Positions 2,188 through 3,925 of a stretch of 27,948 bases of DNA are shown here, piece after piece. Within the stretch, counting starts at the first letter, position 1. Each line of letters begins with the position of its first letter. Position numbers and translations under genes: made by a program. The notes below the pieces were generated by a model. The model had not been told where the DNA came from and did no database searches. It saw only the letters and a list, made by a program, of their open reading frames with translations. Source of the stretch: a virus; the IMG/VR virus record IMGVR_UViG_3300009418_000087, positions 1-27,948 of that record. The stretch is one strand, 5' to 3'.

Positions 2188-2916
2188 ATGAGCCACGAAG
2201 CGACAACGTGGGCGTTCGGGCAGCGCGGTCTGAAGCCTGCCACCAAGATGGTGCTTTTGGCTTTGGCCAACTGCCACAACCCGCATCACGGCTGTTTCCC
2301 GAGCAAGAAGCGACTCGCTGAAGACTGCGAAATGTCAGAGCGATCGGTAGCGGATCACCTTCAGAAGCTGGAGCAAGGCGGCCTCATTTCCGTCGAAAAG
2401 CGCGGCGGGAAGCGTATGGGGCAATTTGCATCCAACCGCTACATATTGGGGTTTGAACGCGAGAATTGCCAAGGGCAGGACTTGCCGTCGGCAAAATCTG
2501 CCGTAGGCGAAAACGAGGACTTGCCGTCGGCAAAATCTGCCGTCGACCGTCGGCAAAATTTGCCGAGTAACCTTGTAAAGGAATCTTGTAAGAGAACCAG
2601 TAAGGGCGAGCATCCGCGTGACGTTCTCTTGCAATTCGCAGATGGCGAGGCTGTCACCAGCTTCATCGCATATCGTCAGCGCAGGAATAAGCCGCTGACC
2701 CTCACAGCTGCCAAGCGGCAAGCTACGCACCTAGGAAAAATCGCGGACGCCGGAGGGGACCCAAGCGACGCTTTGGGCATGGCGGAGGAAAAAGGCTGGG
2801 TGGCCGTCGAAGCCGATTGGTATTTCAACGCCCGGCGCCAAATGCCGACCGCTTCGTCAAATTCCGACGATCATCTTAGCAAAATGCAGCTCAAATACGG
2901 AAACGGAGGCCAGTAA
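2188..2916 (+). CDS. Winged-helix replication initiator-like protein (lambda O-like architecture)
   Basis: 242 residues. Residues 12-90 form a helix-turn-helix/winged-helix domain of the type used in phage and plasmid replication proteins, including PSKKRLAEDCEMSERSVADH and the wing around KRGGKRMGQFASNRY. Residues 97-126 are encoded by DNA repeats and read as a peptide duplication (DLPSAKSAV twice). Residues 165-212 form a second conserved-looking domain (PLTLTAAKRQ to VEADWY). ATG 2188 is taken because the helicase ends at 2183 and the conserved domain begins soon after; the frame is open further upstream but only inside dnaB. The layout of N-terminal DNA-binding domain, iterons in the middle of the gene and a C-terminal domain parallels lambda O, but sequence homology to O is not claimed. 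It probably binds the iterons in its own gene and recruits the adjacent helicase. Confidence 0.8.
   Translation: MSHEATTWAFGQRGLKPATKMVLLALANCHNPHHGCFPSKKRLAEDCEMSERSVADHLQKLEQGGLISVEKRGGKRMGQFASNRYILGFERENCQGQDLPSAKSAVGENEDLPSAKSAVDRRQNLPSNLVKESCKRTSKGEHPRDVLLQFADGEAVTSFIAYRQRRNKPLTLTAAKRQATHLGKIADAGGDPSDALGMAEEKGWVAVEADWYFNARRQMPTASSNSDDHLSKMQLKYGNGGQ
2477..2566. repeat. Iterons, candidate replication origin inside the initiator gene
   Basis: Two identical 28-bp copies (2477-2504 and 2516-2543), 39 bp apart, each contain CCGTCGGCAAAATCTGCCGT. A third copy, CCGTCGGCAAAATTTGCCGA, lies at 2547-2566. Each core is a dyad (CGGCA...TGCCG), and the third is a perfect 7-bp-arm palindrome around a central A. 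Copies one and two also contain TTGCCG-T-CGGCAA. An AT-richer stretch follows (about 2567-2600, with CTTGTAA twice), unusual in this GC-rich genome. Lambda's ori has the same plan: dyad iterons with an A-run centre within gene O, followed by an AT-rich unwinding region. Confidence 0.75.
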
Positions 2917-3342
2917 ATGGCAGGCAGCGTAAACAAGGTAATTCTGATCGGAAACTTGGGCCGCGACCCTGAAACGCGAAATTTCGCGAACGGCGGCAAG
3001 GTCTGCAATCTGCGCATCGCCACGTCCGAGACCTGGAAGGACCGCAACAGCGGTGAGCGCAAGGAGCGCACCGAGTGGCATCAAGTCAGCATCTTCTCCG
3101 AGCCGCTGGCGAACATCGCAGAGCAGTATCTCCGCAAAGGGTCAAAGGTCTACATTGAGGGCCAGCTTGAAACCCGCAAATGGCAGGACCAGAGCGGCGC
3201 GGACCGCTACAGCACTGAGGTCGTTCTTCGCCCCTACGCCAGCACCCTGACGATGCTGGACGGCAAGAGCGAAGGCGGGCGGCCCGGTGGGGGGTATTAC
3301 GACGACTCGGACATACCCTTTGCCCCTGAGGTGCGGGCATGA
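2917..3342 (+). CDS. ssb: Single-stranded DNA-binding protein
   Basis: 141 residues with the full OB-fold signature of bacterial/phage [20 protein letters not shown] (5-21), [21 protein letters not shown] (52-72) and [16 protein letters not shown] (75-90). A short glycine-rich linker follows. The acidic tip DDSDIPF (129-135), used by SSB to recruit partner proteins, is present but is followed by six more residues (APEVRA) instead of ending the chain. It coats single-stranded DNA at the fork. The start directly follows the TAA of the initiator gene, and the stop overlaps the next start (ATGA). Confidence 0.97.
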
Positions 3343-3575
3343 CCTTTTTCGAGGAAGGCGACCGCGTGCAGGTTCGCGACCCCGAGGGATGGATCCAGCC
3401 TTGGCGCAACAGGTTCAAGCCCGGCCGCGCAGGCACCGTGCAGAAAGTCTTCGCTGATGGGCGTCGGAACCCGATTTTGGTGCAATGGGACACGAAGTCC
3501 AAACGGCTGACCGAATGGCAACTGACGGTCAATCATCGCGATCTAAAGCACGCCGACGAGGATCCCCGCCCATGA
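3339..3575 (+). CDS. Small SH3/KOW-like hypothetical protein
   Basis: A 78-residue protein beginning [16 protein letters not shown], with a later segment reading [10 protein letters not shown] followed by a strand ending VQWD. Alternating GD-V-V and G-V-V strands are typical of small SH3-like or KOW-like barrels. Similar short proteins with a GD-V-V-P-W-RNRF pattern occur in alphaproteobacterial phages, without assigned function as far as I know. It is coupled to neighbours by ATGA overlaps at both ends, so it is translated with the SSB and DnaA-like genes. A nucleic-acid-binding role is only a guess from fold and context. Confidence 0.7.
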
Positions 3576-3925
3576 CCACCATGCAGGACATAGCCGCCCA
3601 GGTGACGGCAGAGACCGGCGTGACGCTGGAGCAGATGCGGGATTTGGACCGCGCTAAAGGCCGAACAGCCGCGCGGCAGCGGGCATGGCGTCAGGCGCGT
3701 CATCGCCTCGGAGCCAGCTTTCCGGAGATCGGCCGGTTCTTTCGCCGCGACCCTTCCACGATCATCGCCGGGATACGAATGGACGAAAAGCGCCATCCCG
3801 ACCGCGCCGCTGAACTCATGGAACTCGCCATTCGCGATGCCGCCAAGCTGGCCGTGCGCAAGGGCGTCGGAGTTGAGGCCCTGCACAACCGCTTGATGGA
3901 CGCATACCGGGAGGCACAGGCATGA
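3572..3925 (+). CDS. Stand-alone DnaA domain IV-like DNA-binding protein
   Basis: 117 residues. The central part (about 31-75) resembles the C-terminal DNA-binding domain of DnaA: a helix rich in Arg/Ala (ARQRAWRQARHRL), the SFPEIGRFF element equivalent to LPEIGRAF in DnaA, and RDPSTIIAGI at the position of the DnaA-box-reading RDHTTVLHA helix. There is no AAA+ ATPase domain, so it cannot initiate alone like DnaA. It lies in the replication operon with overlapping starts on both sides; the ATG at 3581 is a possible alternative start. It may bind DnaA-box-like sites to regulate host or phage replication, or act as a transcription factor. The domain match is good by eye; the role is inferred. 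Confidence 0.75.
   Translation: MTTMQDIAAQVTAETGVTLEQMRDLDRAKGRTAARQRAWRQARHRLGASFPEIGRFFRRDPSTIIAGIRMDEKRHPDRAAELMELAIRDAAKLAVRKGVGVEALHNRLMDAYREAQA

Follow-up and report, generated by a model that had tools for sequence, protein, structure and literature searches.

The locus considered here raises the question of why the gene for a winged-helix protein should carry an array of dyad repeats in the middle of its coding sequence, and whether that array is the replication origin of the phage that encodes it. The DNA analysed (the window) is the whole of IMG/VR record IMGVR_UViG_3300009418_000087, a linear sequence of 27,948 bp whose completeness is not stated. Its replication block, encoded on the plus strand, comprises in order a phage-encoded DnaB-type replicative helicase (792-2183; Pfam DnaB_C E 8e-71, DnaB N-terminal domain E 2e-18), a winged-helix initiator of 242 residues directly downstream of it (2188-2916), and, directly after the initiator, a single-strand DNA-binding protein (SSB; 2917-3342; Pfam SSB E 1.9e-37). 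A little further downstream lies the gene for a small protein (3572-3925), an orphan DnaA C-terminal (domain IV) DNA-binding domain (Pfam Bac_DnaA_C E 3.8e-10), the rest of DnaA being absent. A second IMG/VR contig (3300025293_000121; L004) encodes the initiator from residue 85 to residue 242 with 100% identity, and the genes that come after it are those of the window. From the sequence comparisons set out below, positions 2477-2606, within the initiator gene, are very probably the phage replication origin, of the intragenic type found in lambda and P22.

The array consists of three iterons on the plus strand, delimited by repeat and dyad analysis. Iteron 1 (2477-2504) is made up of TTGCCGTCGGCAA (2482-2494) overlapping CGGCAAAATCTGCCG (2489-2503), iteron 2 (2516-2543) is an exact copy of iteron 1, and iteron 3 (2547-2566) is a shorter dyad in which positions 2550-2566 (TCGGCAAAATTTGCCGA) form a perfect odd palindrome centred on 2558. 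The first-pass annotation of this DNA had described two identical 28-bp copies and a shorter third, and all three were found exactly where it had placed them; a set of dyad iterons, each some 17-20 bp long and located within the initiator gene, is characteristic of lambda/P22-type origins, and here there are three. Dyads of the form CGGCA-N5-TGCCG begin at 2489, 2528 and 2551 and nowhere else in the record (3/3 inside the initiator gene), whilst 2,000 synonymous-codon shuffles of the gene yielded a mean of 0.08 and a maximum of 1. Likewise, the longest exact repeat in the gene (28 bp) far exceeds that in 200 codon shuffles (mean 9.3, maximum 17), and the pair of 28-mers is the sole direct repeat of at least 20 bp within 300 bp across the 27,948-bp record. 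In iterons 1 and 2 a second dyad, TTGCCG-T-CGGCAA, overlaps the first (at 2482 and 2521), which gives each of these iterons three alternating half-sites. Because the half-sites alternate, odd spacers from 1 to 9 score alike, and the register was therefore set on the perfect dyads (spacer 5); an even-length dyad test on relatives was not used, being uninformative for dyads of odd length.

Iterons 1 and 2 duplicate the peptide DLPSAKSAV exactly, and the repeat could accordingly be a feature of the protein, a duplicated peptide linker. Iteron 3, however, carries the same DNA in another codon frame and encodes a different peptide (RRQNLPS), so that the duplicated peptide is a by-product; the first-pass annotation was right that copies 1 and 2 duplicate it, yet the peptide is not the unit of repetition. 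In L005 (also L226; IMGVR_UViG_3300027980_000042), the nearest relative whose genome differs from that of the window, all three iterons are present with the 39- and 23-bp spacing of the window. Between the window and L005, synonymous codons are identical at 28/30 degenerate sites in the array (93%), compared with 37/72 (51%) in the upstream coding region (Fisher p 3e-5). Given the frame shift of iteron 3 and the identity of synonymous codons in the array, the repeats are, on this comparison, conserved as DNA, and together with the codon-shuffle controls this bears out the earlier suggestion that DNA function has shaped the linker. In addition, the iteron-encoded linker (about residues 99-142) is modelled by AlphaFold2 with low confidence and almost without regular structure, which also speaks against a peptide role; the chance that the repeat is a protein feature is negligible.

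The protein resembles a replication initiator. Residues 14-67 match Pfam HTH_36 (E 2.3e-15), and the protein matches several PHROG ‘replication initiation O-like’ families (best E 3.5e-24), an O-like initiator with an N-terminal DNA-binding domain being what is seen in the lambda/P22 type. In the AlphaFold2 model the winged-helix domain (wHTH) is followed by the unstructured, origin-encoded linker and a helical C-terminal part of low to moderate confidence. The predicted recognition helix comprises residues 51-63 (ERSVADHLQKLEQ; pLDDT about 96), the codons of which lie at 2338-2376 on the plus strand. The helical C-terminal domain (residues 143-217; 2614-2838, plus strand) may bind a partner, and in the closest relative an unrelated domain is found instead. 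When the wHTH was compared with known structures using Foldseek, the wHTHs of DnaD and of plasmid initiators ranked high, as did the MarR, ArsR and Fur regulators. As dyads of this size are typical of operators, the latter neighbours lend something to the view that the repeats are no origin but operators, used by the wHTH protein to regulate the transcription of the operon that encodes it. Operators would, however, sit oddly in the middle of a gene, beside a conserved AT-rich box at fixed spacing (described below) and in an operon with a helicase and an SSB, and the DnaD and plasmid-initiator neighbours point the other way; we regard operators alone as very improbable, although the array may have a second, regulatory role beside that of an origin.

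Relatives of the gene were gathered by using the wHTH alignment to scan GTDB genomes and IMG/VR and by adding phage records, which gave 151 distinct complete genes. The best repeat family beat all 12 codon shuffles in 146 of the 151, and the remaining five show repeats by eye; no relative without an array was found among these 151 genes, and the array occupies the same position in every one, starting at a median of codon 99, just past the wHTH, regardless of protein length. The first-pass annotation had named relatives with intact initiators but without repeats as grounds for rejecting the origin, and none such appeared. A DnaB gene lies inside the fetched flanks in only 4/150 relatives, linkage to the helicase being a minority trait, which weighs against the origin reading. 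Between the window and L226 the wHTHs are 81% identical and the iterons nearly identical, whereas the C-terminal domains belong to different classes; the DnaB proteins are 51% identical. The C-terminal domain of the window protein matches that of a Pseudomonas phage initiator beside a primase/helicase gene (39% over 62 residues). That such similar wHTHs and iterons are joined to different C-terminal classes indicates that the iteron region is the border between exchangeable halves of the initiator. When the L226 initiator (3001-3711) is set beside that of the window (2188-2916), the halves are seen to be swapped at the putative origin. A Sulfitobacter prophage (L147, 1629-3714) has the DnaB-initiator order of the window, with a DnaB that is 54% identical and the 10-bp spacing to the box, but its iterons are different (GGACAAATTGTCC).

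An initiator gene that carries its own putative sites documents how one protein is matched to one DNA sequence, and such pairs were compared across 41 representatives (<88% wHTH identity) by relating iteron half-site distance to residue distance, with the rest of the wHTH controlled for. The top segment of ten residues was 47-56 (partial r 0.49; maximum of 500 permutations 0.41), a signal that is not fully independent of phylogeny, since related genes share ancestry and residues 69 and 83, outside the recognition helix, also score high. This segment overlaps the start of the predicted recognition helix (H51-63); taken singly, positions 55, 51 and 52 also rank among the highest. Pairs of helix and half-site include SRSTLN with GTGTCCG, S[VI]SxLN with [AG]TCTCCG, SRASLN with [GA]TGTCCA, SRA[ST]xNR with GTGTCTC, and SERSV with TCGGCA (the window) or TCTGCA. 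Across the 41 representatives the iteron sequence co-varies most strongly with the predicted recognition helix, and the check proposed by the first-pass annotation, whether the repeats move with the DNA-binding residues, thus came out in favour of its reading. Residues 51, 52 and 55 may set specificity, and the recognition code they suggest is directly testable. The same result bears on whether the palindromes act in RNA, as hairpins of an early transcript. The RNA fold z-score of -2.6 would suit hairpins and is also what is expected of DNA palindromes, but base pairing predicts neither the covariation of the iterons with the encoded helix nor the constant spacing to the box, and an RNA role seems highly implausible. 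A scan for the window iteron CGGCAAAATYTGCCG returned mostly single chance matches and, besides the known relative, five loci inside distantly related initiators (L071, L056, L091, L104 and L121; family HMM E 2e-37 to 2e-6); these carry it in the linker, and in all five the residues corresponding to R52 and V54 in the recognition helix of the window protein are likewise R and V.

The array is adjoined by a constant AT-rich box, TAACCTTGTAAAGGAATCTTGTAAGAGAACCAGTAAGGG (2568-2606, plus strand; TAACCYTGTAAGRGAACC type), a candidate DNA-unwinding element that begins 10 bp past the centre of iteron 3. Here the first-pass annotation had noted an AT-richer stretch, and positions 2567-2610 are indeed 57% AT as against 43.5% for the gene, in keeping with the AT-rich tract adjoining the iterons of lambda/P22-type origins; what distinguishes the stretch is rather a conserved box at fixed spacing. 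Within it, GTAA occurs at 2575, 2588 and 2600 in the units AACCTTGTAA, AATCTTGTAA and AACCAGTAA, which form a structured repeat, and the second and third GTAA are in a codon phase unlike that of the first, which points to constraint at the DNA level. The use of two codon phases is claimed for the window and L226, where it was read by hand; a tally in which 123 of 139 genes had units in two or more frames was rejected, since units containing 1 or 2 spacer bases give rise to it artefactually. In relatives the box is typically TAACCYTGTAAGRGAACCWNTAAGRGAACCAGTAA, encoding NLVREPVREPV via codons that are otherwise rare in those genes, and it is present in 138/146 of them as a 58% AT island within 37% AT genes. 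Valine is encoded by GTA in 269/271 cases in the box as located by pattern, compared with 3.4% elsewhere, the pattern itself favouring GTA at the first valine; with the box defined by position the figures are 63/69 and 34/526 elsewhere. TAACC lies 10 bp from the centre of the last dyad in 128/139 genes and in 34/38 representatives, across iterons as unlike as the GGACAAATTGTCC of L147. Exact matches to AACCNTGTAARRGAACCNNTAA in IMG/VR number at least 120, and of those listed 119/120 lie inside O-like wHTH initiator ORFs. The array and the box are thus, as judged from their conservation, selected as DNA with a fixed place and spacing. How the origin opens is still an open question, as the title of a review puts it (PMC5043065), and a constant box at fixed spacing offers a defined target for mutations aimed at that step.

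The type of box varies between initiator families. Lambda O and P22 gene 18 have the words ACACAAAAGACA and TACAAAAGA in common, just past their unlike iterons. A scan for ACAAAAGACANTAT(N)ACAAAAGA gave at least 120 matches, all of those listed lying within ORFs and falling, by the protein sequence that precedes the motif, into about 18 groups with many unlike iterons. Among the matches listed, the best dyad centre in distinct contexts lies 11 bp upstream in 18/52 and 22.5 bp upstream in 25/52, the latter being cases in which the dyad between neighbouring copies scores better; also among the matches listed, the partner at these loci is P22 gp12 in 44/120, lambda P in 39/120 and a DnaC-like protein in 16/120. 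In phages of E. coli and Vibrio, by contrast, the initiators of HTH_36 type (no more than a handful of genes) have AACCAGTCA-type boxes like the alphaproteobacterial ones. Boxes of the AACCNNGTAA or AACCAGTCA type are therefore found with HTH_36-type initiators (alphaproteobacterial, E. coli and Vibrio phages) and those of the ACAAAAGACANTAT type with lambda/P22-type initiators (enteric). The type of box seems to track the initiator family, and not iteron type, helicase partner or host. The initiator is accordingly the best candidate for the factor that reads the box, although simple inheritance of the box within each initiator family may be an alternative. A host factor reading the box is less likely, given that E. 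coli and Vibrio phages with initiators of HTH_36 type have AACCAGTCA boxes and enteric phages with initiators of lambda/P22 type have the other box. We tentatively propose two layers of recognition, an arrangement that is plausible if somewhat short of probable: the recognition helix would read the variable iterons, and a conserved region of the initiator family would recognise the constant box in a sequence-specific manner, perhaps once the box is single-stranded. The box lies one helical turn away, and its type goes with the family. One enteric locus (L504) has a ACAAAAGACAATAT box at about codon 257 of a 388-codon ORF, with a dyad upstream; its N-terminal part is unlike wHTH initiators, and it may represent an origin in an unusual gene fusion.

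On the origin reading, the 242-residue protein would bind the dyad iterons via its winged-helix domain, probably as dimers, and the loaded array would unwind or bend the adjoining box (2568-2606), one helical turn from the last dyad centre. The C-terminal domain could then recruit the phage’s own DnaB helicase, with SSB holding the opened strand. The orphan DnaA domain IV protein encoded by the phage raises the alternative that the true origin lies elsewhere and is served by that protein or by host DnaA; against this, no DnaA box (TTWTNCACA) occurs anywhere in the 27,948-bp record and no second repeat array of comparable length was found in it, and an origin outside the initiator gene is very unlikely. 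GC skew over the record showed no clear switch near 2500, which, for a linear contig, neither supports nor refutes an origin there.

A search of the open literature, with older lambdoid papers mostly outside its coverage, turned up no account of the AACCNNGTAA box or of the alphaproteobacterial arrays. The constancy of the AT-rich region among lambdoid phages may partly be on record in that older work. The Rhodobacter capsulatus phages RcMeacham, RcDormio and RcKemmy and Rhodobacterales prophages share with the window the initiator family, the place of the array and, in nearly all, a AACCNNGTAA-type box, but they differ in their iterons (CTCCGAAATTCGGAG or GTGTCCGGAAATCGGACAC and others) and, in nearly all, lack an adjoining DnaB. 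The initiators of the three phages are labelled in their records only as ‘helix-turn-helix DNA binding domain protein’, and looking for the array and box would be an easy means of annotating origins in phages and prophages of Rhodobacterales. Sphingopyxis phage VSN-002 likewise has a wHTH gene with an array of 17-bp repeats and a DnaB-type helicase two genes upstream, although its iteron is ACCCCCGCAAAATC and its box is not clearly of the window type.

In lambda, O dimers bind the iterons, and bending and the opening of an adjoining AT-rich tract follow (PMC5043065, review); in Stx phages extra iteron copies add residues to O (PMC7466680). Like the window gene, lambda O carries dyad iterons mid-gene (four annotated, of 18 bp) and then an AT-rich tract, but the iteron and AT-box sequences differ, and whilst lambda relies on the P loader and host DnaB, the neighbours of the window initiator are DnaB and SSB, the next gene being SSB where a P-type loader directly after the initiator would mark the lambda subtype. 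The first-pass annotation had called the design lambda-like and offered the phage’s own DnaB as a contrast; the intragenic array stands, but that contrast is already known from P22 and phage L, in which genes 18/12 have their own iterons inside the initiator gene, beside a phage DnaB-type helicase (PMC8022706). Indeed, the P22 record has a rep_origin annotated inside gene 18. The window shares with P22 and L an initiator with intragenic iterons next to a phage DnaB-type helicase, the adjacency that marks the P22 subtype, and differs from both in wHTH family and iteron sequence; it differs from P22 also in having the helicase upstream of the initiator (downstream in P22) and a AACCNNGTAA-type box (ACAAAAGACAATAT type in P22). 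The intragenic origin design is thus already known from lambda, P22 and L, whose iterons differ, and it is to P22 that the window is closest in logic.
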